Below the pieces are notes generated by a model. The model made no database searches and was not told where the DNA came from. It saw nothing but the letters and a program-made list of their open reading frames with translations. A DNA stretch of 64,000 nucleotides from assembly GCA_026014615.1 (NCBI GenBank), contig JAOZHZ010000021.1, positions 1 to 64,000 on the forward strand, written 5' to 3'. Position numbers and translations under genes: made by a program. The DNA comes from Candidatus Bathyarchaeota archaeon (GTDB taxonomy: Archaea; Thermoproteota; Bathyarchaeia; Bathyarchaeales; Bathycorpusculaceae). Positions 2,338 through 17,365 of this stretch are shown here, in pieces. Every line of letters begins with the position of its first letter. Position 1 is the stretch's first letter.

Positions 2338-3678
2338 TTAAGGTATGCTTTTTCGAGTTAGATAGTAATGTCGGAATGAGTTTAGGATGTCTTCAACTAA
2401 AGTTAACGTTCCGTTGAAGCCAATCAAAGGTCGCTGTGTAAGCAAAGTTTTCTCGTTGTAAGGAAATGAAATGGGTATAAACTCCGGTGGTTCCTTGACC
2501 ATCATCGAAAGATACTCCTCGATGCTACTGCCGAAAACAAGGACAGGCTCACGTTCATTTATGGAATCCATGATTTCGTATTGGTCGGGGTTAACCATAA
2601 TTGAAGTATCTAAGGAATTAGCGGCAAAGTAATTTTGGAGTGCGTCATAGCTTATTTGCCCTACCTCTCTAAAACCTATAATAACAGGGTACAGACCTAG
2701 ATATTCATAGAGAAATGTTGTTAAAGCTAACACTTGAGAACAATCCCCGAAAATAGCAAACGGTACTCCCCGCAACGTATTGTTAACTATTGACATCCTT
2801 GAAAGCGCTGTGTAACATTTCACTCGAACATTCTTTGATTTCAATTCGATTGGTTTGTGTGAAAGATGGAAAAAGTCTGCCACTGTCCTGAACCAAGTTT
2901 CTGAGGGACTTAAACCAAAAGGCGCATACATATCTAAGCCTATACTTGGAGTTCCGTATTCTTTGTCAAGAAAAAGAGCAACAGAGTCACCGTACTCTTC
3001 GCAGACAACTAGATTAAGTGCCGCCTCACTGGCGCGTTCAAGATTTGCGATTTTTTCGCCAGCGCAGATAACAGACACTACCTCAACTCCTATAGTTCGA
3101 AGTGCCCGTTTGAGCTCCACAACGTCACTCGCCCAGTTATAGTGGAAAACTGTGGGTCCAATTAGGTTAACGCTTTTAGGAAGTTTTTCTTTTGGGGTCC
3201 GGGCTAATCGTTCAAGAATTTTAATTGCCCCCGTTTTGAACCCATCTGCGTAAGTCCCGGTGAAACCTGAACTATCAACGACCATAGTCCGAGTTTTTAT
3301 CCCTGACTCCTGAATAATTCTACATAAATCATCGCCAATTAAGGCAGTACCCGAGTGATTAATAACCCCAATCAAGCCATAAGCTTTTAAGTCCAGCAAT
3401 TGAATCGCGCGGGCTATTTTTTTTTCTGTACCATACACGAAGTCTTGCTCGTCGGTATATGTACAAGGAAGACGGCGTTGCCCAAAGTAAAAATCGGCAT
3501 AAGCGTTGTCCTCAGAATTAACATGTGAACCCAGTACATCAACGTTGTAGCTTAAGGGGTGTTTACAGCCTATGGGACTGTTAAGCATTGTGTAAGCATC
3601 GCTGATTCCTTCGAATGCAGCTACTATGCCTGATAGTGAATCAGGTCTATGCGCAGCCTTGGACAAGTTTTTTATCAT
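2338..3678 (-). CDS. Nitrogenase component 1-like protein, NifK/NifN-like subunit
   Basis: 446-residue Oxidored_nitro-family protein, the likely second subunit of the complex begun by the upstream fusion gene. Its start overlaps that gene by 32 bp. Cluster-ligand region: Cys38 ([12 protein letters not shown]) and Cys72 in [14 protein letters not shown], the NifE/N/K-type signature. The third nitrogenase Cys position is replaced ([10 protein letters not shown], where the partner has [10 protein letters not shown]). It is shorter than true NifK and lacks its N-terminal extension. Known relatives with this simplified make-up are group IV enzymes (F430 biosynthesis CfbD, protochlorophyllide reductase, methylthio-alkane reductase). 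I see nothing that fixes the substrate, and no nifB, nifE/N pair or molybdate transport genes nearby, so nitrogen fixation is unlikely. Confidence 0.85.
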
Positions 3679-5872
3679 GTCTCCAACCTTCTATAGTAGG
3701 ATATTTCAATTTTAAGCGTAATCGTTTAGCGTAAACAAGTCCTCCGTCAAAACCATAAGTGGGAAGAACCGGAAGGATAGGTGTAGGAAGAGCATCAAAG
3801 GGTAGATGGTTAAAAGCGAAAGTAGTGGTAAGCACGAAGTCTGGGCGTTCTTCGAGAATAGCTTTTTCAAAATTACTCACTGGAAAATTATGTTCAACTC
3901 GGATTTTGGCAGAATACTTAGTTGAAAAATGCTCTCGTGGAGGGAAAACACTTGAAGAGTAAAGCTTACATATTTTAACGCCTAAATCCATCATGGTTGA
4001 TATTAACCAGTCGATGTTGTGTGGCGAGCTAAAAATTAAGGCTTTTTTCCCGGAAAAATCTTTTCGCAGTAGGGGTAATTGACGTTCATAATCTAAACGT
4101 GCTTCGTTGATGACCCGTTCAGCCTCAGATATTTTATTAAACCGCCGCCCGAGTGCGCGAGTGAACTCTGCTGTCTGCTCAAATCCAACGGGCAAAGGCG
4201 CTTCAAGGGTCTCCATAGAAAAACGAGTTTCTAAAAAATTAGCTACGTCTCGAACTAAAGGATCATGGAAAAAGGGAATGTTCACTTTTGCCTTTTTGAA
4301 CTGCCTTATCTCCGCTATTGTGGTGTTGCCAATAAATCGGCAATTCACTTTAATGTTCAGTTTCTGAAAAATTTGGTCAATCGCCTCACAGTTTTTGCTA
4401 CCATAAGGAAAAAGAGTTTGCTCTCCAATTATGTTAACCAGATTATCCTCAGAGCTAACGCTGGTATCAATTAAGCCCTCTGCCACCGCACGGTAAGAGT
4501 TAATCATACCCGTGTAGAAATCACCACTGTCCATAACGCCGTCTGTTGGGATGTAGTAAAGCTGAACCCCGTCGACTCTTAGTTCATTCACGACTTGATT
4601 AATGTCGTCTCCGATTATTCCAGCAGGACAAGAGGTAATTATGAAGATTGTATATGAGGGAAACCTTTTGTGAACTCTCAAAACTGTATCTTTTAGATTT
4701 TTCGCACCGCCAAATATGACGTCTATTTCCTGCATGTTTGTGCACAAAAGATTCGGAGAGAGTCGAGCTTCAGAAGGCGAGAAATTAGCGCGACTTAGAA
4801 AACCAGAAAAGCTAACATATGCGCAACCCTGAGGAGCATGCATTACTGCTACTCCATCCTTGATTTTTCTGATGGCTGAGAAGGCACCCGCTAGAGAACA
4901 CCCCTGAACAGGCGGTCGGGTTTTTTCGGAAGGTGAACATGCCTTATTTTTATTTGAAGCCTCGGGTTTTTTTTGAGTCAATGAGCAAGAGCCATCTGCA
5001 GGTCGTGGCGTCTGAGTGCTGTTCATGGATGTGGGAACAGCACTGGTGTGGTTTGTTGATTTTGGGTTGTAGCAGAAGTCACGCAGGAATTTGTCCAACT
5101 CCGTGTCCGTGAGTGGTTTGGGTGCAACTGGAACTTGTTGGCGTTCAATGTGTTCTGCTATAGATTGGAACACTGTGGCTAGTTCGGAGTTAGGGGCAAA
5201 GTCCATTATGGATTTAGAGTCAAATTCTGCTTGGACAATAAGCTCACTTTTAGGTATGAACGCAACCATTTCCGTACCAATCAACCGCGCAAAAGCAGCA
5301 ATTGTCTCCCGCTCGTTTCTAGTTCCCCGTCCATTACCAATCACGCCACCTAATTTTCCTCGAGTGGTGGAGAATCTCTTCACGCCTTTGGCGATATTGT
5401 TAGCCGCATACAAAGCAGCAATTTCTCCTGAAGTTACGATGTAAACTTCATCTGCGTACCCTTCCCGCATAGGCACTGCAAAACCGCCACAAACTACATC
5501 ACCCAAAACATCAAAGAAAACGTAATCAAACTGCTCCATGTCTAGACCTGGTTCTTTTAGAAGATTAAGCATCTGGATGATGCCTCTTCCAGCGCATCCA
5601 ACGCCTGGCTCGGGACCGCCGCTTTCAATACATTTAATCCTGTTATATCCTGTAAGCATAACGGAATCAAGAGAAACATGACCTTGGGTGTTAAGTTGCT
5701 CCAACACAGTCGACTGCGTAAAACCGCCCAGAATGAGCCGAGTTGAATCATGTTTAGGGTCACAGCCTATCTGTAGAATTCTTCTGCCTCTTGCGGACAA
5801 AGCTGCCGTAACATTTGAAAGAACTGTGGATTTGCCGATGCCGCCTTTACCATAAAATGCAATACTTCTCAA
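3647..5872 (-). CDS. NifH-NifD/E fusion: nitrogenase-like reductase joined to component 1-like domain
   Basis: 741 residues in two parts. Residues 1-270 are a NifH/BchL/CfbC-type ATPase: P-loop GKGGIGKS (8-15) and the two cluster cysteines Cys93 (PGVGCAGRG) and Cys128 (GDVVCGG). A low-complexity linker (about 270-320, rich in Ser, Thr, Pro, Lys) leads to a NifD/E-like domain (320-741). That domain has three cluster cysteines: Cys325 (VQGCSLAGA), Cys350 ([11 protein letters not shown]) and Cys415 ([11 protein letters not shown]). Normally NifH is a separate dimer that docks and leaves each electron-transfer cycle, so covalent tethering is notable. Start ATG at 5872 is 46 bp downstream of operator P3. 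With the NifK-like gene it would form an H-D/K complex. FecCD permease and TrmB-like neighbours suggest a metal- or tetrapyrrole-related role; this is inference. Confidence 0.88.
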
Positions 5873-6119: not shown

Positions 6120-6683
6120 CTATGGATTCTGTACGGTTTCTTCAAACCCAATCGCCAGAGGCAACTGGCTGTTTGGCGCCAACACAATTCTGTCACCGTG
6201 CTTGAGCATCCACGGTTCTCCCAGTTTCAGCATATGGTCGTTAACTGCGGTTCCATTTGTGCTTTTGCAGTCCTCAACTGTGCATTTCTTTTTGTTAATC
6301 ACCCGTTTAGATTCCCCACAAGACGAGATACTGATTTCGTCCTGCATCTTTATCCGTAGATGTGGGCACCTAGAAACGTAGGGGTTTCTAATGCAAATGT
6401 TCTGCTTAAGCGAAGGGTTTAGGTCGCTTTGTATGGTTATGAAGTTGCTGCTGCCCTCACGCCCAATCAAAACCCCTGTAGCCAAAGCGTATTCGAAAGT
6501 TTGTTTTTCTTCATCTTCAAACCTAAGCTTAGGCACCAAATGAACCTCGGGGTTGTATTCGTAGACGGAACGGCAAAACTCGCATGTAATAACCGTGCTG
6601 TCTGTAGTCAACGGAATTTGGATTAAACCGCCGCAATTTTCGCATTTAACCTGTTTTTCTGTTAGAAAAAACCCGCTTGACAT
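6120..6683 (-). CDS. Zinc-ribbon plus FHA-domain protein
   Basis: 187 residues. N-terminal zinc ribbon with CENCGG (about residues 14-19) and CEFC (34-37). It is followed by a forkhead-associated domain (about 90-180): GREGSSNF, NPYVSRCPHLRI and EDCKSTNGTAVND, which carry the conserved Gly-Arg, Ser-Arg-x-His-like and Ser-x-Asn-Gly motifs that read phosphothreonine. The ATG follows the kinase stop by 2 bp, so the two are surely co-expressed. The simplest role is a reader of phosphorylation made by that kinase, tethered by the zinc ribbon to another partner. It is the last gene of the ESCRT array. The domain is confident; the partner is inferred. Confidence 0.85.
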   Translation of the reverse strand: MSSGFFLTEKQVKCENCGGLIQIPLTTDSTVITCEFCRSVYEYNPEVHLVPKLRFEDEEKQTFEYALATGVLIGREGSSNFITIQSDLNPSLKQNICIRNPYVSRCPHLRIKMQDEISISSCGESKRVINKKKCTVEDCKSTNGTAVNDHMLKLGEPWMLKHGDRIVLAPNSQLPLAIGFEETVQNP

Positions 6684-6685
6684 GG

Positions 6686-8911
6686 TTAACTGCCCCTTCT
6701 TTTAGGTGCAACGTGTTTTGTTTTGCTGCTACTGAATACTGCTAAAAGTTCACGGATGCTTGGTCTATCCATGGGTTTAGGGCTCAGCATCTTTTCCACA
6801 ATGTCTACGTAGACTTTGAGTTCTTCCCGCACTTGTCCGCTGTAGCGGTTTTGGAGCCTTTGCAAATCGCCGTTCAGTTCTCCCGTGAGGATCTCTCTGA
6901 AAACTACCCCAAGCGAATACAGATCACTTTTCGGAGAGCCTTTGCCTTCCCGCATCTCAGGAGCCATGTACGGCAAGCTACCCCGTGGCGCAGTGATATC
7001 GCCAATGGTTATGGCTTTGGCTAATCCAAAGTCGCCTAGCTTCCAGAGTTTCTTTTTGTTGTCGTAGAATATGTTGGAGGGCTTAATATCGAAGTGGGCA
7101 ACTCCGTGTTGATGAGCATAGGATAGGGCTAAGCAGAGGTCATTCATAATTTCGGTGCATTTAAGAAGCTCGATAGGTTCGCCTGAGGCGAGTCTGCTGC
7201 GTAAGGTGCCTCCGTTGAGGTATTCCATTATGATGTAGGGGTATTCTAGGTCGCCTTGGTTTTCGATGTCCACTTGTCTGACGCTAACAATGTGGTCTTC
7301 GCGTAGATCGCTGGTTAACTTGGCTTCTTCAATGAAGCGTTCCACTACGGCAAGGTTAGATACGAACTCGGATTTCAGGGCTTTGAGCGCCATTTCTTCA
7401 CGGAACTTAGCCCGCCTGACACGGTAAACCTTGGCAAAACCACCCGCGCCAACATCCTCCACGATTCGGTACTGCCCCCCGATGACGTGGTTCAGCTTAA
7501 AGGGCCAACCTAAGCGCGATTGGTTGTTGCCGGTTGCTGTGCCGTTTTCGTGGACTGCCACGGTTAAACCAAAAATATGTTCAACCAAAGTGGTTTCTTC
7601 AACATCCTGCAGTTCCACGTCAAAATCGGGGATAACAAAGTTGCCGTCGTCTGGAGCTTGTAGACGCAGCACAATTTCCTCGGTTTCATCACTCTTTAGT
7701 CGAGGCAGGTTACAGTCTACGATTCCTGACTGGATAAGTTTGGGGTCAATTGGCAGGTTGAAGTGGACGTTTTTGGCGTCACCTTCTCCTATGTTTGAAA
7801 TCCGCACGGTGACGGGAAACACCCTTTTTTGGGCAACTCCTTCAGGAGCAAACAGCTCGACTTTGAGTTTCGGTTTCGGAGTCATGACGTTTACTTCTAT
7901 TGCAGGCACTTGAGTGCTAAAAGGTATCCCTAAAAGGTCTTCGTAGTACAAAACAAGCTCATCGAAACTTGTGGTGCCGCTTCTTTTCGGCTTAAGGCTT
8001 ACCTTGAATTTGACGCTACCGTGAGAGGCAACGTTGCCGATTTTTGTTGGCTCCAGAACCTCAAAATCAGAATACTTCTCCAATCCCCTAAGTTCCGTGT
8101 TTTGGGCAGTGCCTAAGCCGCGGTTGTTAATGTCCAGCACCAGCCTGAAAGGTTCCTGATAAAACGCTTCGCAGCAGCTTTGGTCATCCAACACCACCAA
8201 CTCAGGCGGTAAAGGCATTACCTCCAGGGTCGCCGAAAGAGTAGTTTTAGAATCCAAATTTATGCCTTCAACCACTCCACCTAAACTGATTGCAACAGGC
8301 AGATGACCATGAAAGCTGGTGTTGTATTGATACTTGCCCGTGAATTTACCCTTAAAGATTTTTGAGGGTAGTTTGGGTTCTTCTTCAAGTTCAAGACCAT
8401 GCGGGAGCACAGTTGTTATACGAGGGGCCACAATTTCGCAGGGACATGTTACCTCGATGTTTAAGATTGTTCTTTCTCCGACTGAAACTTTGCCGGGCTC
8501 AAACCATGCCCTCAGAGAAGGCTTGTTTTTAACTTCAGTATAGTAATCATGCAAAGCTTTGCCGATGGTTCCCCTATTCATTAATTCAGAAAGCAGCCAG
8601 TTTATATCCTTCGCGGTAACCCCGAAATGGACCACCAAATCCGTAAAACCCAGTTTTCCGTGTCCAGCATCAAGAAACTCAAGGTCTGCTTTGTCTACGA
8701 CTACAACTTTGGCGGATTGCCTGTTGTTGTTTACGAGGTAGTGGGTGTCAAGTTTTTTGTTTTGGAGTTGTTTGATTACTTCAGGAATTTCACTGGAAAT
8801 CGCGGATTCGTCAACATTCAGTTCTTGTGCTAGTTCTCGAATGCTGAGGCACTTCATGAACTCACAACAGTTGACAGTAGGTTGCTCTATACGCATAAAT
8901 GCTTTTTCCAA
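6686..8911 (-). CDS. Ser/Thr protein kinase with winged-helix-like and beta-sandwich N-terminal region
   Basis: 741 residues. Residues about 15-115 look like two winged-helix units (SIRELAQELNVDESAI and later ITWLLSEL-like helices). Residues about 130-460 form beta-rich CARDB/immunoglobulin-like repeats (FEPGKVSVGERTILNIEVTC, LDINNRGLGTAQNTEL, VRISNIGEGDAKNVHF). The C-terminal 260 residues are a Hanks-type kinase: glycine loop VGAGGFAKVYRV, lysine in ALKALK, catalytic HFDIKPSN, DFGLAK and YMAPEM. The residue before the catalytic Asp is Phe instead of Arg, making it a non-RD kinase, which usually means no activation-loop phosphorylation is needed. No membrane span is seen, so it is cytoplasmic. 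It sits between SPFH and FHA genes inside the ESCRT array. Confidence 0.9.
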   Translation of the reverse strand: MEKAFMRIEQPTVNCCEFMKCLSIRELAQELNVDESAISSEIPEVIKQLQNKKLDTHYLVNNNRQSAKVVVVDKADLEFLDAGHGKLGFTDLVVHFGVTAKDINWLLSELMNRGTIGKALHDYYTEVKNKPSLRAWFEPGKVSVGERTILNIEVTCPCEIVAPRITTVLPHGLELEEEPKLPSKIFKGKFTGKYQYNTSFHGHLPVAISLGGVVEGINLDSKTTLSATLEVMPLPPELVVLDDQSCCEAFYQEPFRLVLDINNRGLGTAQNTELRGLEKYSDFEVLEPTKIGNVASHGSVKFKVSLKPKRSGTTSFDELVLYYEDLLGIPFSTQVPAIEVNVMTPKPKLKVELFAPEGVAQKRVFPVTVRISNIGEGDAKNVHFNLPIDPKLIQSGIVDCNLPRLKSDETEEIVLRLQAPDDGNFVIPDFDVELQDVEETTLVEHIFGLTVAVHENGTATGNNQSRLGWPFKLNHVIGGQYRIVEDVGAGGFAKVYRVRRAKFREEMALKALKSEFVSNLAVVERFIEEAKLTSDLREDHIVSVRQVDIENQGDLEYPYIIMEYLNGGTLRSRLASGEPIELLKCTEIMNDLCLALSYAHQHGVAHFDIKPSNIFYDNKKKLWKLGDFGLAKAITIGDITAPRGSLPYMAPEMREGKGSPKSDLYSLGVVFREILTGELNGDLQRLQNRYSGQVREELKVYVDIVEKMLSPKPMDRPSIRELLAVFSSSKTKHVAPKRRGS

Positions 8912-8979
8912 AACTTCGTCGAACAGACAGTACTATGTAGCAAAACTTCGTTTCCAAAATCCTGCTGAACAGGTCCCCT

Positions 8980-9600
8980 CTACTTTGAACCTAAATTCTG
9001 CCAAGTCATACCCGTAACATCCATCGAAATGAGCTCAATGCCGTACTTGGACAACTCATAGACAAGTCTAGGTCGTAAATCAAGATTTACAAAGTTTTCG
9101 CGGTCCAGTCGTTTGAATTCTTCAAGCGTGCGGTTCTTTAGGATATCACGCAAAACTGAGGCTAAAGGTCCCCTGCGAAGCCAATCAACCACTTGCGCGG
9201 CGTCAAAACGGGGGTTACCTCCGACCATTTCAAGAAGAAAAGCCTTGACGTCTTCTTTCGTGAAAGCAACTCTGGAGGTGACGGTGCCGCTTAGACCAAT
9301 TTGGTAGTTGTCTTGTGATATTGGTCCGTTGAAGACGGGTATTCCGAAAGGCTGAGTTTTGGGGGACACATCCACCCAAACAATCTCGTCTAAGTCTTTG
9401 GGCACAGGATGTTTGCCCGAGGACAGGATGTTTTGGAACATGCCGTTCTTCACGAACACCGCTTTCTCAAATTCCTTCACGATTATTTGGTCTATCGCTT
9501 TGACTTTGGGGAAGTTTTCATTCGGAATACGCCAGATCAACGCGCCAAGTTCATCTTTGTTGAGGGCTCGTGAAACTACTTTCTTTTTAAGAAATGGCAT
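8980..9600 (-). CDS. SPFH/band-7 domain protein
   Basis: 206 residues, essentially one SPFH domain: IIVKEFEKAVFVKNGM, then FGIPVFNGPISQDNYQIGLSG and a C-terminal YGIELISMDVTGM segment. There is no N-terminal membrane helix and no long C-terminal coiled coil, so it is shorter than stomatin or flotillin and closer to the cytosolic SPFH proteins found with zinc-ribbon partners. Such proteins scaffold membrane microdomains. It lies between the EAP30-like and kinase genes, all in one direction, which suggests it helps localise the ESCRT and kinase parts at a membrane patch (inference). Confidence 0.8.
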   Translation of the reverse strand: MPFLKKKVVSRALNKDELGALIWRIPNENFPKVKAIDQIIVKEFEKAVFVKNGMFQNILSSGKHPVPKDLDEIVWVDVSPKTQPFGIPVFNGPISQDNYQIGLSGTVTSRVAFTKEDVKAFLLEMVGGNPRFDAAQVVDWLRRGPLASVLRDILKNRTLEEFKRLDRENFVNLDLRPRLVYELSKYGIELISMDVTGMTWQNLGSK

Positions 9601-9685
9601 TGTGAGTCTCCCAGTTACTCCTATGTCTGTTAACTGAATATTTTAGGCTAATGTATGATTGAGGAACGGAGAAAAATGAACACTG

Positions 9686-10786
9686 TTAAGCAGGTGATGT
9701 TGATAATCCTGGGAAATAGTATCTTGCGGTGTTGTCCGGGGTTAGGACTTTGCGGGTGATGTCTTCTGTTTCCAAGCTTGTTAACACCAAGTTGCCGTAG
9801 TCTTTGGACCAACCAGTTTTCTGCATAAGCTGTTCCACGGTTAAACCATTATTCTGTACCGATACGTCGGCTTGAACCAAGTCTAAGACTGATTTGCAAT
9901 CCAGCTTCAGTATGGCGGTTTTGCTGCCGTCGTTGAAGACTTGAACGCTATGAATTAACCCGTGCTCGGCCAGAGTACCCAAAGCTTTCTCTATATCCTC
10001 ATGGTTTATGTTCACGTCGGGATTCAACTTCTGGAACTCCAAACAGAAATCCTTCAAACTAACCAGCGGCTTTTGCTGTACTTCTAAAGCTTTAACAACG
10101 TTAATTGCCCGTTCACTGACTTCTTGAAGGAAGGCTTTCTTAAACAATCCCTTTTTTGTCTTGGCATTATAAAAAGCGAAACTCGCAATGCCTTTGACTT
10201 GTTCATATACTTCGGGAGCACGCGCTTGCAATATCTGCAAAAACTGTCTTTCGCCTACGGTGATTGCTAAAGACTTCACATGTTGCACATTTTCGACGTT
10301 TTGAGCTGCTTTTTTTATAGTTTTCAGCGCCAAAACGTTAGCCTGAGCGCCCCCGCCCAGATCGAGAAGCTCAGCTCTTACAGTTTCCAACATGATAAAA
10401 CAGTCACTCAGAATGATTAGGTCAAGGCAGGCTAACCCGTTTATAGCAACGTCCTTTTTGGGTTCGATTACTTCTGAAGAGTTTATGGAGCGGCATAGGC
10501 GTTCAACAATAACGCGGGTTTCCTCCAACTCCCCTCTGAAGTGGGAGTCGCTTAGTTTAAGGGCGGAATTTGATGTAAAAGACAATTCTCTCTGAACTCT
10601 ACTTAACTCCTCCAAAATCTCCTCCCGCACCGTCCTGTCAAAACTGGCAAACTCATCAGCAGTTTGAGGAAGGATACTAAGGGATCCGTAAAGTCGCCCC
10701 CGAACTTTTTCCAGCACTTTTTCTGAAGCATTTATTGTCGCTGATTTTGCTAAATCAAAGATGAGCCAGTCGAAAGGAAGAGACAT
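9686..10786 (-). CDS. EAP30-like (Vps22/Vps36-type) ESCRT-II subunit candidate
   Basis: 366 residues. The first 230 are alpha-helical without a known signature. The last 130 form two predicted winged helices whose layout follows eukaryotic SNF8/Vps22. The first is LVSLKDFCLEFQ, a loop, then IEKALGTLAEHGLIHSV and TAILKLD. The second is LTVEQLMQKTGWSKDYGNLV followed by an ARYYFPGL end, aligning with the VTVSEIKASLKWETERARQV and HYWLPAL segments of Vps22 as I remember it. Its neighbour is a Vps25-like protein, the other ESCRT-II subunit, which strengthens the call. The longer helical N-terminus differs from Vps22. Homology is by eye and needs profile or structure comparison. Confidence 0.65.
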   Translation of the reverse strand: MSLPFDWLIFDLAKSATINASEKVLEKVRGRLYGSLSILPQTADEFASFDRTVREEILEELSRVQRELSFTSNSALKLSDSHFRGELEETRVIVERLCRSINSSEVIEPKKDVAINGLACLDLIILSDCFIMLETVRAELLDLGGGAQANVLALKTIKKAAQNVENVQHVKSLAITVGERQFLQILQARAPEVYEQVKGIASFAFYNAKTKKGLFKKAFLQEVSERAINVVKALEVQQKPLVSLKDFCLEFQKLNPDVNINHEDIEKALGTLAEHGLIHSVQVFNDGSKTAILKLDCKSVLDLVQADVSVQNNGLTVEQLMQKTGWSKDYGNLVLTSLETEDITRKVLTPDNTARYYFPGLSTSPA

Positions 10787-10860
10787 GTTTTCCCCCTAAT
10801 TACTGTTAGAACATGCAAATTTAAGGCTTAACGCACCTAAAAAACAAGAAAAGAGGGCAC

Positions 10861-11358
10861 TTATTGATTTATTCGGAGTGTGCAATCCTTCTTTTTTATC
10901 CAGCGGGCAAATTTTTTATCCACTAAAATCTTTAGGACCTGCAGTTTCTCTTTTTCAGGCATTGAAGCCAGTGAGGGTTCCAAGTCGGTTAACCCTTGAA
11001 TTCCGTTAATAACCCTTGTTTTCTGTTCCTTTGTCAAATTGTAGATGTAGTCTGCCCATGCATCCAAAGAGCGCCAATAAATCCTAAGTAAGCCACTTTT
11101 TTTGTTCCACCATTTACCATAACCTGTCTGCATTAACGAGTTTAGGAGAGTCTGGAAGGTGTCACCGTCGAACCTGTTAAACGGCGCCTCACGATGAAGG
11201 TCAGCAACGTTTACAAGGTAAATGTTTTTGTTTTCGGCAAACCTCAAAAAATACTTGACCCACGTTTCTTTCCAGTTAGCCAGCAGCTCGGAGCTCTTTG
11301 GCTCCGAATACATCCAAGGCTTGTCAAGCCAGCCGTCATCTACAGAGGCAGAGTCCAA
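10861..11358 (-). CDS. Vps25-like ESCRT-II subunit candidate
   Basis: 165 residues with the size and order of eukaryotic Vps25. An N-terminal helix (PKSSELLANWKETWVKYFL) and first winged helix contain REAPFNR and end with LLRIYWRSLDAWADYIYNL, which parallels the Vps25 segment SFLIMWRRPEEWGKLIYQW. A second winged-helix-like part follows (LDKKF-type helix, then ARWIKKKDCTLRI). Vps25 bridges the Vps22/36 core to the ESCRT-III subunit Vps20. Here the gene directly follows an ESCRT-III-like gene (6-bp spacing) and precedes the EAP30-like gene, so all expected partners are adjacent. The conserved Trp-Arg motif region makes chance resemblance unlikely, but this is still by eye. Confidence 0.7.
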   Translation of the reverse strand: MDSASVDDGWLDKPWMYSEPKSSELLANWKETWVKYFLRFAENKNIYLVNVADLHREAPFNRFDGDTFQTLLNSLMQTGYGKWWNKKSGLLRIYWRSLDAWADYIYNLTKEQKTRVINGIQGLTDLEPSLASMPEKEKLQVLKILVDKKFARWIKKKDCTLRINQ

Positions 11359-11364
11359 CGAGGG

Positions 11365-11928
11365 TTAACCTGTCTCTTTTCGTCTTACTTTTCCCCGTTT
11401 TGCCGGGGAGTTGGTCACTGATTTTTTGTTTGGCACCTCAGGAAGCCCAGCCGCGACGACTGCTAACGTTTCAGGTTTGGCAACAGCAGGCTGCGATTTT
11501 CCTTTTAGCTTCGCAAACTCTGCGCTTATAACTTTTTCTTGAATGCCATAGCCTTCAAGTTCAGTCATCGTCTGCTCTACGTTTACTTGGGTAATGAAGG
11601 ATAAATTATTGAGTGCCTTCACGGTTTTGTCTCGGTCCGTGACGGAACCACGCAGGCTACTGTTGACTTTTTCTATGGTCTGCGAGGTTGGGTGGTCGGG
11701 CTGCATCAACAGTTGCAGTCTAGCCGCATCCAAGTCCGCCATAACCGCTTCTTCATTGTTTCTTAGCTGTTTACACAGCAGGTAAACTGCAAGCCTACGT
11801 TTTGCAGCGTCATCCATCTCTTCCTCAGCAAGCTCGGCAGCTTTCCGCCGATTCTGCTCGCTTTCCTCTTTAAGCACACGACTTCTTTTTGCATGCTCGG
11901 CTATCTCTAAGTCCAAAGCATCTAACAA
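11365..11928 (-). CDS. ESCRT-III-like coiled-coil protein (Vps20/32/60-like)
   Basis: 187 residues, nearly all helical. A long charged hairpin (from LDALDLEIAEHAKRSRVLKE through AAKRRLAVYLLCKQLRNNEE) is followed by a shorter helical segment and a C-terminal tail containing AAGLPEVPNKK. The hairpin composition and length fit the ESCRT-III core. The LPEVP core in the tail matches the MIM2 motif by which Vps20/32-type subunits bind the MIT domain of Vps4. It is the second gene of the leftward array, before the Vps25-like gene, which would be its nucleating partner. Subclass assignment is tentative. Confidence 0.65.
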   Translation of the reverse strand: MLDALDLEIAEHAKRSRVLKEESEQNRRKAAELAEEEMDDAAKRRLAVYLLCKQLRNNEEAVMADLDAARLQLLMQPDHPTSQTIEKVNSSLRGSVTDRDKTVKALNNLSFITQVNVEQTMTELEGYGIQEKVISAEFAKLKGKSQPAVAKPETLAVVAAGLPEVPNKKSVTNSPAKRGKVRRKETG

Positions 11929-11972
11929 GTCTTGCTTGTTGTCCTTAATTTTGAACAGAACCCTCGCCCCAG

Positions 11973-12596
11973 TTACTTAATGTCCTCCATACTAGAACCC
12001 TTCAGGCTTTGACGCCGCTGCTGCAGCTCCGAAAGCTTGGTTTCGGGAAGCCCTGATGCGGGACCCTCAGCTATGACCTCGCTTACCATTTTGTCCATGA
12101 CTTTGTCTAAGTCTTTGCCTGTTGTGGGTTCGACACTGAAGGGTTCATAATCTTTAAGTTGGTCGAAAATCTGGCCTGTCTTGAAGCCGATTTTCTCCAT
12201 CTGCTGCCCAACTTTACCCATTACTTTACCTACGCCGCGTGTCTTCAGAAGATTAAGTTTGTCAAGACTTTTGCTTATTTTTCCCAGACTCAACCCTATG
12301 TTTTCAACGGACTGCGCGTTGTTTAAGTCAAAAATGAGATTATCCATATTGACAACGAACATGTCTAAAGAGAAGGCAGTACGGTCTAAGCTTATGTGCT
12401 GCTGAGCATACATTTTTGCGCGGTAATCGTCCCCTTTGACTATGCAGTCTTTCGCTTGATCATACATGGCAGTCGCCCGCTGCTTGTATTTGTCTCGTGT
12501 GCGAGCGATTTCCTTGTTGTACATTTTCAAATCAATAACCAAATCTTCAAGCGGTTGACCCCATATGAAGTTCCTAAACTTTTCCGTAATAGGCAT
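11973..12596 (-). CDS. ESCRT-III/Snf7-family protein (Vps2/24/46-like, CdvB-like)
   Basis: 207 residues from the ATG at 12596, which has GGGGAT four bases upstream; a TTG at 12653 would add 19 unlikely residues. Core: KFRNFIWGQPLEDLVIDLKM, a basic helix with many Lys/Arg (KYKQRATAMYDQAKDCI), then helices with SLGKISKSLDKLNLLK and MGKVGQQMEKIGFKTG. The C-terminal tail has LSELQQRRQSLK, close to the MIM1 consensus LxxRLxxLK recognised by Vps4 MIT domains. ESCRT-III proteins polymerise on membrane necks in division, budding and repair. First gene of the array, divergent from vps4 with overlapping promoters. Confidence 0.85.
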   Translation of the reverse strand: MPITEKFRNFIWGQPLEDLVIDLKMYNKEIARTRDKYKQRATAMYDQAKDCIVKGDDYRAKMYAQQHISLDRTAFSLDMFVVNMDNLIFDLNNAQSVENIGLSLGKISKSLDKLNLLKTRGVGKVMGKVGQQMEKIGFKTGQIFDQLKDYEPFSVEPTTGKDLDKVMDKMVSEVIAEGPASGLPETKLSELQQRRQSLKGSSMEDIK

Positions 12597-12659
12597 GGAA
12601 ATCCCCAAGCATAGTTCACCGCTTGGCAATAAAAAACTTGTCCCAACCGCCAACAGAGA

Positions 12660-12700
12660 ATCGGCTCTTTAGGTCTTAATAAAAGCTTATTATTACAAAA
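12660..12700. promoter_or_regulatory. Divergent promoter shared by the ESCRT array and vps4
   Basis: An AT-rich near-palindrome (plus strand TTAATAAAAGCTTATTATTA, about 12674-12693) gives a TATA-like box in each direction. The rightward box would start transcription near 12708 for vps4. The leftward box would start near 12657 for the ESCRT-III gene. One promoter region thus sets polymer and disassembly ATPase levels together. Confidence 0.5.
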
Positions 12701-12732
12701 GAAACATCTAGAAACCCAAAAGTGATGCACGC

Positions 12733-13884
12733 TTGTCTTCCCGTCTGTATAATCTAGCAGTAAATGCAGCCAACGACGCCGCAAAACTTGATTCTGAAGG
12801 AGACAAAGAGCAGGCAGTAAGCAAGTACCTGCAAGCGTTTGACCTGCTTATGTCCATAATCCGCCACACAGACAACAAAAAGCTAAAGGACTTCTATGAA
12901 GAACGCGCAGAGCAATACTTAGCAAGAGCATACGCCCTGAAAAATGCAGCCAGCAAAGCAGACCAAGTGGGCGGAAAAGAGGACAGTAGAGAAGAGAAAG
13001 ACCAAGAGGAATTGCAGTCAAAAGTCGCCTCCATGATTCTACCAGAAAAACCCAACGTATCATGGAAAGACATCGCGGGACTCCAAACCGCAAAAGAAGC
13101 CATCGAAGACGCCATAATTCTGCCGCTACGCCGAATAGACCTCTTCAAAGGCATGCCAACCTGGAAAGGCATCCTACTGTTTGGTCCACCCGGATGTGGA
13201 AAAACGCTTCTCGCAAAAGCGGCTGCAACTGAATGCGAAGCCACTTTTTTCAGTGTAAGCGCTGCGGATGTCATGGTCAAATGGGTTGGAGATTCAGAGC
13301 AACGCGTCAAAGCATTGTTTGAATCGGCAAGGAAGAACCAACCTGCAATTATATTCATCGACGAAGTTGACTCGTTGGGCACTGAAAGAACAGGAGAAGA
13401 ATCCGCTGTTTCTACACGGGTTTTGACTCAGATGTTGCAAATGATGGATGGGATTCAAGGGAAACCTGATGACCGAATCGTGGTTTTGGGAGCCACTAAC
13501 AGAGCGTGGAAGCTTGACTCTGCCATACTACGCCGTTTCGACAAGAGAATCCTCGTTTCGTTGCCCGACGCCGCCGCGAGGGAAGAAGTTTTTAGAATCA
13601 CTATAGGAAAAATGCCCAGCTTCAAACTGGCGGACAAAGTAGACGTGCATGAACTTGCTCAACTCACTGAGGGACTTAGCGGGGACGACATCAAAAAACT
13701 ATGTCTTGACGCATGGTATAGACCCATCCACGAACTCAAGCAGCAGAACAATCTAGAGTCAGGTGTGCCAAGACCCGTAACGATGCAGGATTTTGTAGAG
13801 GCATTGGAGATCAGGCGGGCATCAGTTTCAAGTGAAGAGGTAAGGCTTAACGAGGGATGGGCAAAAACATTCGGAATAAACTAA
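12733..13884 (+). CDS. vps4: Vps4/CdvC-type AAA ATPase with N-terminal MIT domain
   Basis: 383 residues. MIT domain at about 1-75 (three helices, for example NDAAKLDSEGDKEQAVSKYL), acidic linker (80-95), then one AAA module: Walker A GPPGCGKT, Walker B IIFIDEVDSL, pore-loop region MVKWVGDSE, sensor GATNR and arginine finger RRFDKR. The C-terminal helix ends after a Vps4-like helical region. It disassembles ESCRT-III polymers, recognising their MIM tails with the MIT domain; both MIM1- and MIM2-like tails occur in the divergent genes. The start is a TTG at 12733 with GTGAT seven bases before it. The stop lies 22 bp from the convergent beta-helix gene. Confidence 0.93.
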   Translation: MSSRLYNLAVNAANDAAKLDSEGDKEQAVSKYLQAFDLLMSIIRHTDNKKLKDFYEERAEQYLARAYALKNAASKADQVGGKEDSREEKDQEELQSKVASMILPEKPNVSWKDIAGLQTAKEAIEDAIILPLRRIDLFKGMPTWKGILLFGPPGCGKTLLAKAAATECEATFFSVSAADVMVKWVGDSEQRVKALFESARKNQPAIIFIDEVDSLGTERTGEESAVSTRVLTQMLQMMDGIQGKPDDRIVVLGATNRAWKLDSAILRRFDKRILVSLPDAAAREEVFRITIGKMPSFKLADKVDVHELAQLTEGLSGDDIKKLCLDAWYRPIHELKQQNNLESGVPRPVTMQDFVEALEIRRASVSSEEVRLNEGWAKTFGIN

Positions 13885-13906: not shown

Positions 13907-16900
13907 TCAGCTTAATCGGGTGAACAACTGCTGCCGTATGTAACCCTTTGAAACGTAACGTTTACCGTCGTTTGAGAAGACACCATCTGCTTTCTGCAAT
14001 TCCACACCACGAGCCAACAACTTCACGGCAGCCACCGTGCTGTACCCCAACTTTTCCGCTAATGCAATTACTGAAATTTGGTCTACGCCCTGCAGGGTAT
14101 TCTTGAAATGCTCTGACAGTTCTACATCGTTTAGCATCTCGTTTACCACGAAATCCAAATCCCCCCCGCGAGCTCTGGAAAGCAGAACATCTAAGACGTG
14201 AATCTTGTCCAGGTTAACGTTTGGAATGAGCGCCATCGTTTTTGCGTTAGACAGGTCCTTTTTCAGGGCAGAGTTGATTTTGTTGATTCGTTTAAGCTTC
14301 CAGGAGTTAGGCGCTTTTTCTTTTCCTACACTCATGAATGTTTGCAACGTTAAAGATTTTGCCAATGCAGCGTATTGGATTAGTGCTTGGATGGCGGCTT
14401 GGGGTTGGTTTAGTTTGATGTAGGACTGGTAGGCTTTGGCGTAAAATTTAGCTGCGTCTAAAGGGTTGCCTTTTTTCTGCAGGTCGTCTGCTTTTGTCTT
14501 GAGTATGTTTCCGCGGTTTTTGCGGTAAACCCTTATGGTTGGAACTGAAACGGCGGTGCTTAGGACACCGATCATGGTTAAGGTGATTAGTATTGTTTGG
14601 ATTGTCCAAAACGGAGAGGACGCAACGGACGAAGAGGGGGAAGGTGACTGAGGCGGTGGGGCTGTTTGAACCGACGCGATTCTATACGTTACGCCGTTCA
14701 CCATCAGTTCATCGGCATACAGCGGTTCCCCAAACCCGTCGGGTTCGAAAGACTCATAATCAAGACCGACTCCAATGAACAGAACCGCAGCATCTCCATA
14801 GTTGGTTTCCCAGTCGCCAAGCGGTTTCCAGTTGCCCTCATAGCCCGATAGGGAATTAACTGCTTCAGACCAATCCCCATTGCCGTTGGTGATGGCTGCC
14901 CATTCACCGTTGTTTGTTTCCTGATAGTGGCTTAGCAGGACAGCATCTGTGAATTCGTCATTGTTTGTATCAAGGTAAAGCAAGAATCGGGGCGCCGCAT
15001 CCTTGTAGGAAGCGTAAACGGAAAATGTTGATAATGAACGTAACGTTTGACCGTACGGGTATAGAGCTATTGCCCATGAACCTGAGTTTGCACCTTTGGG
15101 GATGGATAGTTTTGCAGAGTAGGGACTGGTGTGGGTTTTTTCGTTGGTAAATACTGCTTGTCCGTCATATCGACTGTCGAGTTGCACGTTAATGGAGTCA
15201 GAGGCAGGTTTGGGTGAAACAGGATGGGTCGACGTTGGGGTAGGGATTGAGTTTGGGGTGGGCGTTTGAGTTGCTGGTGTTGGGGCAGGTGTAGGCGGGG
15301 GAGTTTGGGTTACTTGAGGCGTTGCGGAGGGAGTGGAAGTTGATGAAGGGGATTCTGAGGATGATGCATCAGGAGCGTTCGGGTTTGGCTCACTCAAAAA
15401 GGGAATGAAATTCACGGTGCCTATGTCATAGTCATTGTTGAAGTCTATGATTGTCTGTTGTATCGCTTGCGAATCAGTGGTTCCCCACCAATTACTGACT
15501 GCGTTAACGTTGCCTGAAAGACCTGCGTACGATTGACCTGGAGATAAATCGATGTTTTCGTGCGTATTGTTTTCAATATTATTGTTAATTACTGTCATTG
15601 GGGAAGGAATAGCTGATAGATAAAAACCCCACCAGTTTTTAGTTATGGTGTTGTTCTGGATTGTTACTTGGGCGTTTTTAATCTGTGTGTCTGTCCCTGT
15701 TTGGATAGCGTTGATGTTTCGGGTTAGTAGGTTTTTTTCAATTGCTATTGTTCCAGAACTAAAAATTTTGATGCCGGCAAAAGAGCTATCGATGACGTTA
15801 TTATTGATGAAAGCGTTGGTGTTTCCTTCAAGAAGAATTCCGTCCCTGCCGAAAGACTCTTGGGTAATACTATTGCCTGAAATTTCGATTGTGCCGCCCG
15901 ATGTCTCTATTTTGCCGATTAGAGTGTTACCGCAAAATTTTAGATAACAACAGCTGGATTTTATGTCAGTCAACTCGATAACTGTATTTTCGATTATGCA
16001 ACCTGAACTTGTCTGGTCACTCCACCCAGAACTGACAGAAGTAAATTCGATGTAACCACCACCAGTTATTTGGACTCTATCGACACTGCTACCGCGGGCG
16101 CTTAAAGTCCCGTTTACTTTAATGCAGTACTGTTTAAGTTCTACGCGAGCGCCAGCTTCGATGATTAAAGTTGCTCCGCTTCTTACTGCCACATGTCCTG
16201 TAAGAATGTAGGGGCTGCCTGCTTTAGTCCATTGAGTGTCAGAGATAATTACACCATTGACGTATACTGGACCTTGCGAAGCTGAACTGGAAGAGGAATC
16301 TGCTGATATTGGAGAAGCTTGAGAATTTGGCTCTATTAAGAAGGGAACAAAATTTACGGTGCCTAATGAGAATTCGTTTTTAAAATCGTATATTGTCTGG
16401 TTTATTGTTTGTGTTTCGGTTGTGCCCCACCAATTATAAGGAGCATCAAAATTGGTTGAAGTTGACAGTATAAGGTTGTTTTGGCTGTTGTTTTGAATAT
16501 TGTTATAGGTCAGGGTAACCGATGAGGTAGGTCCAGAAACGCCCCATCGGTTGTTAGCGATAGTGTTGTTTTGAATCAAGATATTATTGTAACCGCCGAA
16601 CTCGATTCCGTACCGATTCTCAATAATTAAATTCCGCTCAACTTTCGCATAACCTCCCGCGTTAATACCTGTCCAATAGTGAGAAATAACATTGTCAGAA
16701 ACGTATGCACTACCGCCTAGACTAAGCCCAGTTGCAGTACCGCTATCTTGAGTGATTATGTTATGGGAAATTGTTGGCGCCCCACTGGTTACTGAAATGC
16801 CACCGCCGCTGGAGTTTATGGTATTGTTCAGAATTGTTGCGGAGCCGCCCGTAATAGAAATTACTGTCGTTAAAAACGTATTTTTAAAAATATTTTGGCT

Positions 16901-17365
16901 TATTTTTGGGGACGCATTGTCAATTTTCAAAACTATTTGGTTACAGCTGGTTTTTTCAATTATGCATCCCATATTGGTGTTTTCCATCCAAGGTGTACTT
17001 GTAGATGAAAAAATGACCCCCTGAGTAGTATAAGGGTCGAAGTTTTTGTCTGTGAAGAAAACTATGTTTTCGGCGCTGCTGCCTTTTGCTTTTAGCGTGC
17101 CTCTTATCTGTAAGTAATAAGCGTCGAAGTTAACGGTTACGCCCGGCTCAATAGTTAGGGTTACGCCGTTGTTCACAAGTACGTTCCCAATAAGTATGTA
17201 GGGACTTTTTGCTTTAGTCCACACTGTATCTACACCTATGATACCGTTGACGTTTGTGGAGACTTGTGCGGCACTAAAATTTGCTGCACCCAAAAAAGCG
17301 AACCCACTAACTATTATAGAGATAAGGAATGCACTAAACAGCATATTCCTCATGGCGTGTCCCAT
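13907..17365 (-). CDS. Large beta-helix surface protein with one membrane span and helical/winged-helix cytoplasmic tail
   Basis: 1152 residues. Signal peptide (first about 33). Two homologous right-handed beta-helix halves follow (about 40-350 and 368-660). Each opens with the same unit (VNGIIGVDTVWTKAKSPYIL against VNGVIISDTQWTKAGSPYIL) and closes with NWWGTTE/D. Then come a Ser/Thr/Pro-rich linker (about 665-720), a jelly-roll-like domain with acidic DTNNDEFTD, and a membrane span near 915-940. The final 205 residues would be cytoplasmic: a MIT/TPR-like helical part (ADDLQKKGNPLDAAKFYAKA) and a winged-helix-like end (VIALAEKLGYSTVAAVKLLA). The gene is convergent to vps4. The extracellular part is NosD-like and may bind carbohydrate. 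A link of the tail to the ESCRT machinery is inference. Confidence 0.75.
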   Translation of the reverse strand: MGHAMRNMLFSAFLISIIVSGFAFLGAANFSAAQVSTNVNGIIGVDTVWTKAKSPYILIGNVLVNNGVTLTIEPGVTVNFDAYYLQIRGTLKAKGSSAENIVFFTDKNFDPYTTQGVIFSSTSTPWMENTNMGCIIEKTSCNQIVLKIDNASPKISQNIFKNTFLTTVISITGGSATILNNTINSSGGGISVTSGAPTISHNIITQDSGTATGLSLGGSAYVSDNVISHYWTGINAGGYAKVERNLIIENRYGIEFGGYNNILIQNNTIANNRWGVSGPTSSVTLTYNNIQNNSQNNLILSTSTNFDAPYNWWGTTETQTINQTIYDFKNEFSLGTVNFVPFLIEPNSQASPISADSSSSSASQGPVYVNGVIISDTQWTKAGSPYILTGHVAVRSGATLIIEAGARVELKQYCIKVNGTLSARGSSVDRVQITGGGYIEFTSVSSGWSDQTSSGCIIENTVIELTDIKSSCCYLKFCGNTLIGKIETSGGTIEISGNSITQESFGRDGILLEGNTNAFINNNVIDSSFAGIKIFSSGTIAIEKNLLTRNINAIQTGTDTQIKNAQVTIQNNTITKNWWGFYLSAIPSPMTVINNNIENNTHENIDLSPGQSYAGLSGNVNAVSNWWGTTDSQAIQQTIIDFNNDYDIGTVNFIPFLSEPNPNAPDASSSESPSSTSTPSATPQVTQTPPPTPAPTPATQTPTPNSIPTPTSTHPVSPKPASDSINVQLDSRYDGQAVFTNEKTHTSPYSAKLSIPKGANSGSWAIALYPYGQTLRSLSTFSVYASYKDAAPRFLLYLDTNNDEFTDAVLLSHYQETNNGEWAAITNGNGDWSEAVNSLSGYEGNWKPLGDWETNYGDAAVLFIGVGLDYESFEPDGFGEPLYADELMVNGVTYRIASVQTAPPPQSPSPSSSVASSPFWTIQTILITLTMIGVLSTAVSVPTIRVYRKNRGNILKTKADDLQKKGNPLDAAKFYAKAYQSYIKLNQPQAAIQALIQYAALAKSLTLQTFMSVGKEKAPNSWKLKRINKINSALKKDLSNAKTMALIPNVNLDKIHVLDVLLSRARGGDLDFVVNEMLNDVELSEHFKNTLQGVDQISVIALAEKLGYSTVAAVKLLARGVELQKADGVFSNDGKRYVSKGYIRQQLFTRLS

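Follow-up and report, generated by a model that had tools for sequence, protein, structure and literature searches.

The 64,000-nucleotide stretch analysed here (the window) comprises positions 1-64000 of a contig (C23, JAOZHZ010000021.1) from the genome of a Candidatus Bathyarchaeota archaeon (G000; 2.63 Mb in 29 contigs, 88.8% completeness, 7.4% contamination), and at 6120-13884 it carries a compact locus that places genes related to the endosomal sorting complex required for transport (ESCRT) beside those for a protein kinase, a forkhead-associated (FHA) domain reader and an SPFH-domain protein. We confirmed eight open frames in this interval, seven on the (-) strand plus a divergent Vps4 gene on the (+) strand. 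The Vps4-type ATPase (12733-13884, +) possesses MIT (2e-10), AAA (7e-43) and Vps4_C (3e-6) domains, and is separated from the leftward array by 136 bases (12597-12732), which are likely to form a promoter region. All on the (-) strand, the array runs from a Snf7-family ESCRT-III protein (11973-12596, open frame to 12653; Snf7 6e-6) through a coiled-coil, helical protein that is ESCRT-III-like (11365-11928; homologues in four genomes), the ESCRT-II subunit Vps25 (10861-11358; PF05871 9e-8), an EAP30-like (Vps22/Vps36-like) ESCRT-II subunit (9686-10786; EAP30 6e-6), an SPFH/Band_7 protein of 206 amino acids (8980-9600; Band_7 1e-8, Band_7_1 9e-8) and an immunoglobulin (Ig)-repeat Ser/Thr kinase (6686-8857, open frame to 8911; Pkinase 3e-42, CARDB 3e-10) to an FHA and zinc-ribbon protein (6120-6683; FHA 3e-11). 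With the starts of the Snf7 and kinase genes shifted to ATG codons (12596 and 8857) to define gene limits and spacing, the gaps from Snf7 down to FHA measure 44, 6, 74, 85, 122 and 2 bases, and a single operon is plausible for the tightly spaced gene blocks. The GC content of the locus (0.459) is close to that along the window (0.469 +/- 0.016). An earlier sequence-only reading of this DNA had named Vps4 with its MIT domain, Vps25, EAP30, SPFH, the kinase and the zinc-ribbon FHA protein, and each of these is borne out by frames, Pfam families and relatives; its remark that no CdvA, ubiquitin or ESCRT-I gene is seen likewise stands for the 15 window frames to which the Pfam scan was confined.

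For comparison we used 256 genomes of the class Bathyarchaeia, and four of them recur below: G127, of the same genus as G000; G157, of the same family; and G201 and G230, from other families. Contig loci in these and other genomes are labelled L010 (G127), L012 (G157), L013 and L117 (G201), L015 and L016 (G000), and L025 and L026 (Asgard archaea).

The ESCRT-II assignments were examined with family models, profiles and structure models, and the calls of both subunits hold. Vps25 scores 32.8 bits in the window against a PF05871 cut-off of 27, exceeds that cut-off in all five genomes that carry the gene, and yields a profile (including three Asgard rows) that matches human VPS25 at 1e-12 and the Vps25 of structure 7pb9 at 1e-37. 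From a Vps25 tree in which nine rows were partial and one labelled Asgard (L027) is actually a G201 contig, we use only the support of a four-row clade (95/99). The EAP30-like protein falls just below the family cut-off in the window (26.5 against 26.8 bits) and clearly below it in G127 (0.0004, 20.6 bits), with orthologues above it in G230 (2e-10) and G201 (8e-9). Its predicted model (mean predicted local distance difference test score, pLDDT, of 76.8) has a helical N-terminal half followed by two C-terminal winged helices; hydropathy (1.95) picks out a single hydrophobic segment close to residue 113. The top Foldseek matches of the model are human ESCRT-II chains 3cuq_A (E 2e-4) and 2zme_A (3e-4), at low template modelling scores (0.22/0.34 for 3cuq_A). 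Because the EAP30 alignment held a weak row from L013, the profile search against the Protein Data Bank (PDB) was repeated; SNF8 is matched at 4.7e-4 with that row and at 0.0078 without it. The L013 candidate itself (122-1069) reaches 0.0067, below the cut-off, and our own EAP30 model does not match it. On the same contig, a 369-amino-acid protein (L013:4466-5575) adjoins Vps25, and its C-terminal half matches the Vps25 profile (1.1e-5), which marks it as a second Vps25-like protein; we dropped the idea of an SPFH-Vps25 fusion there, given that the SPFH model matched nothing and the Vps25-like half alone is supported. A sixth candidate Vps25 genome, G183, was also dropped, with 21.3 bits against PF05871 and no locus genes nearby.

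Two ESCRT-III-like proteins had been proposed for the locus, and of these the Snf7-family member is upheld and the other remains probable. The former scores 26.5 bits in the window against a cut-off of 27.3 (27.4 bits when scanned with its frame neighbours), with orthologues at 2e-10 in G230 and at 25.9 bits, below the cut-off, in G157; at 207 amino acids it is too short to contain a fused winged helix. Its C-terminal end, L-x-x-[RK]-R-x-x-[LF]-[KR], is kept in four of four genomes and is missing from three other ESCRT-III-type proteins of G000 (two identified by PF03357, the third a look-alike by eye), and we take it to resemble the MIT-interacting motif MIM1, just as we take the LPEVP of the coiled-coil protein (LPSIP in G230; four of four genomes) to resemble MIM2. 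Judging from homologues, the latter protein probably starts about 10 codons upstream, near 11958. The Pfam Snf7 family is unmatched by it in the window, G127 and G157, and is matched below the cut-off in G230 (6.5e-5). Its model (pLDDT 77.6) shows six helices and a disordered tail, for which the leading Foldseek matches are Lsp1 of the eisosome and arfaptin, followed by Ist1, IST1/CHMP1B and CdvB (E 0.18 or more), with none at E ≤ 0.001; a profile comparison with its Snf7 neighbour was not significant, and a search against PDB sequences was equally fruitless. An ESCRT-III-like frame in G201 (L013:1071-1724) matches no Pfam family and neither of our own models. Elsewhere in G000, an extra stand-alone Snf7-type gene lies on contig C29 (L016:9747-10391), and a protein encoded beside CdvA on contig C17 (L015:11054-11752) resembles it by eye, with PF03357 unmatched.

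The kinase combines Ig repeats and a sub-threshold BatD-like stretch with a C-terminal kinase domain, and shows no clear transmembrane stretch by hydropathy. The catalytic lysine, HxD (HFDIKPSN), DFG and APE are intact in the alignment; these motifs and the FHA residues were identified against what we take to be the canonical sets. With this motif set complete, the protein is predicted to be an active Ser/Thr kinase. A comparison of its N-terminus with Vps25 gave nothing. The zinc ribbon of the FHA protein is read from four conserved cysteines, which are kept along with the FHA residues in three genomes, and the SPFH protein has no clear transmembrane stretch by hydropathy.

The locus is real and recurrent, and it is uncommon. 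Five of the 256 class genomes are found with a Vps25 family alignment (G000, G127, G157, G201 and G230), and the same five with PF05871, plus G183 below the cut-off. The other 251, which include five of the seven genomes of the same genus, give no Vps25 match, and only one match comes from the 120 genomes with at least 90% completeness and at most 5% contamination. In a phylum sample of 397 genomes it occurs only in G000 and G127, the threshold of at least 80% completeness excluding G157, G201 and G230 from that sample. Recurrence of kinase, FHA and SPFH genes beside ESCRT genes had been set in advance as the test of the association, and all three recur in G127 and G230, the kinase and an FHA-like gene in G157 and G201, and SPFH beside EAP30 in G201. 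G127 retains the full eight-gene order inside a 1.68 Mb contig. G230 retains all eight genes in a rearranged form, with Vps4, divergent Snf7, the coiled-coil gene and Vps25 followed by SPFH, EAP30, FHA and kinase on the opposite strand. In G157, the run of Vps4, Snf7, the coiled-coil gene and Vps25 continues with genes for a zinc-ribbon protein, a HerA-type ATPase and then a kinase and an FHA-like protein that each bear a zinc ribbon, the last of them truncated where the contig stops; no EAP30 was found on that contig, to which its search was limited, and no SPFH there or genome-wide at 1e-6. In G201, one contig carries Vps4, Vps25 and weak EAP30 and ESCRT-III candidates, and a second carries EAP30 (8e-9), SPFH, a kinase, a HerA-type ATPase and an FHA-like protein with a zinc ribbon. 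The HerA-type ATPase genes (L012:6086-8398 in G157; L117:3833-5290 in G201) adjoin the kinase and FHA-like genes and are absent from the window locus.

A full-length kinase alignment (E ≤ 1e-60) matches three of the 256 genomes and an FHA alignment (E ≤ 1e-6) the identical three, all of them Vps25-positive; the naive chance of the kinase/Vps25 overlap is 3.6e-6 with kinship ignored, and its real weight is smaller because the genomes are kin. The SPFH model (E ≤ 1e-6) matches 20 genomes, with G000, G127 and G230 at 1e-110 or better and G201 at 2e-20; the other 16 matches (6e-10 to 8e-7, open frames of 323-374 amino acids) are probably ordinary SPFH proteins.

The Vps4 of the locus constitutes a distinct lineage of its own, as judged from a tree of 70 rows (58 from loci L040-L099 and 12 further; L074 has no usable frame, L070, the window, was left out, and eukaryotic rows are not included). 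The sequences from G000, G127, G157 and G230 group together (100/100) in a clade that adjoins the CdvC clade (95/89), lies outside all 32 sampled Asgard rows and is separated from four euryarchaeal rows at 100/99. When all 29 CdvC rows and G201 are removed, the four remain one clade (100/100) apart from Asgard, the unity of which is then weak (47/67). An origin of this Vps4 as a recent copy of Bathyarchaeial CdvC is rejected (approximately unbiased test, p 1e-49). Uniting it with Asgard has p 0.038, rising to 0.306 once six long or outgroup rows are dropped, and long branches meet in the tree; a firm sister relation with CdvC is weakened accordingly. The G201 Vps4 stands apart on a long branch, and joining it to the four is allowed (p 0.063). 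From these tests the locus Vps4 appears as its own deep lineage, beside either CdvC or Asgard. Searching plasmids with this Vps4 (tblastn) gave matches of 93% query coverage on plasmids from the bacteria Candidatus Chlorohelix and Nostoc sphaeroides; these may be bacterial ATPases whose N-terminus resembles MIT.

A separate Cdv locus exists on contig C17 of G000, comprising CdvA (PF18822 4.5e-10), a Snf7 protein whose C-terminus is extended by what looks by eye like the winged helix of CdvB, and an ATPase placed inside the CdvC clade. An FtsZ/tubulin search gave no match in G000 and was positive in 13 of 14 control genomes. CdvA, CdvB and CdvC, elsewhere in the genome, are thus separate candidate genes for division. 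The window locus does not read as a CdvABC division system, with no CdvA among its genes and a Vps4 outside the CdvC clade.

Statements on published work refer here and below to the portions of each paper available to us. That ESCRT may be linked to phosphorylation in archaea is, as a general idea, already known: Makarova et al. (2024, PMC10936438) describe a Main clade with Ig-repeat kinases and phosphatases, a Halo_FHA clade with FHA proteins and a Meth_adaptin clade with SPFH, and propose ESCRT sorting of phosphorylated proteins in euryarchaea. They also link SPFH proteins to the ESCRT-III superfamily, including bacterial YdjI and PspA. The Main and Halo_FHA systems share with our locus Vps4 and ESCRT-III together with an Ig-repeat Ser/Thr kinase, and in Halo_FHA an FHA protein, and on a Thermococcus peptonophilus plasmid kinase, Vps4 and PP2C genes lie side by side; they differ in that no sequence-recognised Vps25 is named for them, that they have winged-helix proteins arCOG09748 and 08177 and a PP2C, and that their Vps4 belongs to a different clade. 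When 23 coding sequences from four euryarchaeal plasmid loci were compared with the locus proteins (phmmer, E ≤ 10), only ATPases and kinases matched. The ESCRT locus of Meth_adaptin likewise has an SPFH protein together with Ig-like and zinc-ribbon domains, whereas it has no named kinase or FHA protein and possesses GOLD and ProX proteins, neither of which is seen at the Bathyarchaeial locus.

Most members of the TACK group (Thaumarchaeota, Aigarchaeota, Crenarchaeota and Korarchaeota) have a minimal CdvABC system (PMC10936438), and Bathyarchaeia are listed among lineages with full CdvABC (2022, PMC9723716). CdvABC shares an MIT-containing Vps4 and ESCRT-III with the locus, which differs in lacking CdvA, in its own Vps4 clade and in having CdvABC elsewhere in the genome. 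Bathyarchaea are mentioned once in the main text of PMC10936438, for extra CdvA-like proteins, and a 2015 study of Bathyarchaeota single cells notes ubiquitin and ESCRT-related proteins without detail (PMC4571567). The available portions of PMC10307638 and PMC12993045 make no mention of such a locus, and we recognised no published description of a Bathyarchaeial ESCRT-II/kinase/FHA/SPFH locus among the papers listed by our searches, in which subscription journals are thinly covered. The sequence-only reading had supposed the arrangement undescribed; this needs qualification, given that kinase, FHA and SPFH partners of ESCRT are known from euryarchaea, and it holds, within our searches, for the exact combination with recognisable ESCRT-II in Bathyarchaeia. 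As far as searched, what is new is the recognition of Vps25 and EAP30 outside Asgard, the presence of all parts in one locus, and the distinct Vps4 lineage.

Asgard archaea resemble the locus in its ESCRT part: Vps25 and one protein of the Vps22/36 type are encoded close to their Vps4 (Hatano et al. 2022, PMC9192718; Lu et al. 2020, PMC7240154), and their ESCRT-III proteins fall into two classes, with motifs that resemble MIM1 and MIM2, to be compared with the Snf7 protein and the probable second ESCRT-III here. CdvBs are reported to lack MIM1 (PMC7240154). Vps25 was counted among three new Asgard arCOGs in 2019 (PMC6393860). In Asgard locus L025, genes for VPS28 and for UEV/E2-like proteins lie close to EAP30, Vps4 and Vps25, whereas the Bathyarchaeial locus has kinase, FHA and SPFH genes instead. 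Relatives of these three were not detected by phmmer in L025 (about 10 kb on each side), L026 (10 and 8 kb) or the shorter L028, and the kinase alignment gave only kinase-domain matches in one whole Asgard genome (G257) and one Ig-part match in another (G256), none of full length. Conversely, none of the five Bathyarchaeial genomes has an E2/UEV match (PF00179) over the cut-off, in a genome-wide search that did not extend to Vps28 or steadiness-box families; G201 has one sub-threshold match (4.6e-4), and an Asgard control genome has four matches.

We lean, if only slightly, towards the reading that some Bathyarchaeia possess a second, non-division ESCRT system, in which phosphorylation would gate membrane remodelling in place of ubiquitin and ESCRT-I. 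Scission under phosphorylation control on an SPFH-marked patch, as the sequence-only reading had suggested, is a reasonable inference from the gene content. Under this proposal the SPFH protein would mark a membrane patch, at which the kinase would phosphorylate a surface or ESCRT protein; the FHA protein would bind the phosphothreonine and recruit an EAP30-Vps25 complex; Vps25 would nucleate the MIM2-bearing subunit, with the MIM1-bearing Snf7 subunit next; and Vps4 would remodel and recycle the filament via its MIT domain. The order from Vps25 to the MIM2-bearing subunit is proposed because Asgard two-hybrid data tie Vps25 to ESCRT-IIIB (PMC9192718). The outcome could be budding, sorting or repair at the cell membrane, with phosphorylation filling the role that ubiquitin and ESCRT-I play in Asgard and eukaryotes.

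Several points weigh against this proposal. Every step of the mechanism is read from sequence, and no phosphatase is found among the locus genes by Pfam. The identity of the second ESCRT-III is weak and is the least certain call of the locus; the MIM likenesses were assigned after the sequences had been viewed, and the MIM2-like motif is less specific because the CdvB of G000 also carries LPEPP, a looser LPxxP. The kinase and FHA genes of G201 lie on a different contig from Vps4 and Vps25, tied to them only via EAP30 and SPFH, and the FHA domains of G157 (18.9 bits, contig-end cut) and G201 (15.9) fall below the Pfam cut-off of 20.7, the kinases of both genomes lacking the Ig part. Finally, there are few fully independent lineages, because G000 and G127 share one genus.

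Alternative explanations may account for parts of this pattern. The locus might be a dedicated secretion or vesicle system, in which a secreted beta-helix protein encoded next to Vps4 (13907-17365, -; Beta_helix 4e-17), and a candidate extra partner, would serve as receptor or cargo, its tail engaging ESCRT while kinase and FHA regulate release. By hydropathy this protein crosses the membrane once and leaves a tail of about 200 residues in the cytosol; its gene also adjoins Vps4 in G127 (L010:12597-16088; 48% identity overall, 52% in the tail), a beta-helix gene lies at the end of the G201 FHA contig, and in G157 and G230 Vps4 is flanked by genes for other proteins that hydropathy marks as secreted or membrane-bound, the G230 frame being cut by the contig end. 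However, the G157 and G230 proteins match no Pfam beta-helix family, and the tail, in which the eye would see a helical repeat followed by a winged helix, has no significant profile similarity to MIT/Vps4 or EAP30 and no convincing PDB match, and we consider a secretion system unlikely. Archaeal Vps4 and ESCRT-III are best known from division (PMC10936438) and FtsZ is unmatched in this 89% complete genome, as a second division or abscission machine acting with or after CdvABC might lead one to expect; yet a CdvABC locus is already present, and the absence of Vps25 matches from 251 of 256 class genomes makes the system look dispensable, leaving such a machine distinctly improbable.

It is also conceivable that kinase, FHA and SPFH genes form a self-contained signalling or defence cassette whose place next to ESCRT is incidental, as the patchy distribution and the HerA-type ATPases of G157 and G201, which recall mobile or defence neighbourhoods, might suggest. 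Against this, the linkage persists despite rearrangement in G230, and full-length kinase and FHA models match no Vps25-negative class genome at the thresholds used; we judge the cassette very improbable. Acquisition of an Asgard ESCRT set by horizontal transfer, or faulty binning, would fit the same patchiness, the 7.4% contamination of the genome and a contig search with one degenerate pattern, which found three of six loci in Asgard and three in Bathyarchaeota, and the tests grouping this Vps4 with Asgard would allow an ancient transfer that preceded the diversification of Asgard. Nevertheless, the G127 locus lies in a contig of 1.68 Mb, the GC content of the locus fits the window, UEV/E2 is absent over the cut-off and Vps4 falls outside the sampled Asgard clades, such that young import or contamination is rejected and this class of explanation as a whole seems hardly credible.

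Recognisable Vps25 has been regarded as an Asgard and eukaryotic trait, with TACK ESCRT reduced to division (PMC10936438, PMC6393860). That a TACK lineage should have Vps25 and EAP30, together with a Vps4 branch of its own and no detected ubiquitin partners, would either push ESCRT-II deeper or show an old transfer. We entertain, only tentatively, a bolder reading in which the locus represents a third deep Vps4-ESCRT lineage, next to those of CdvC and Asgard, and includes true ESCRT-II; phosphothreonine made by the kinase and recognised by the zinc-ribbon FHA protein would stand in for ubiquitin and ESCRT-I, on an SPFH platform and possibly with a transmembrane beta-helix receptor. If this were true, the full ESCRT-II/III/IV core would predate both the Asgard/TACK split and the link to ubiquitin. 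With this locus one could test whether phosphorylation came before ubiquitin as an ESCRT signal or took its place, and its eight small genes, all at one site, lend themselves to reconstitution.

Outside the locus, the window also carries on its (-) strand (2338-5872) a gene that overlaps a second PF00148 gene, neither having a blastp homologue among the L010 frames of G127; its product joins NifH (PF00142 1e-99) and nitrogenase component-1 (PF00148 2e-66) domains in one chain.

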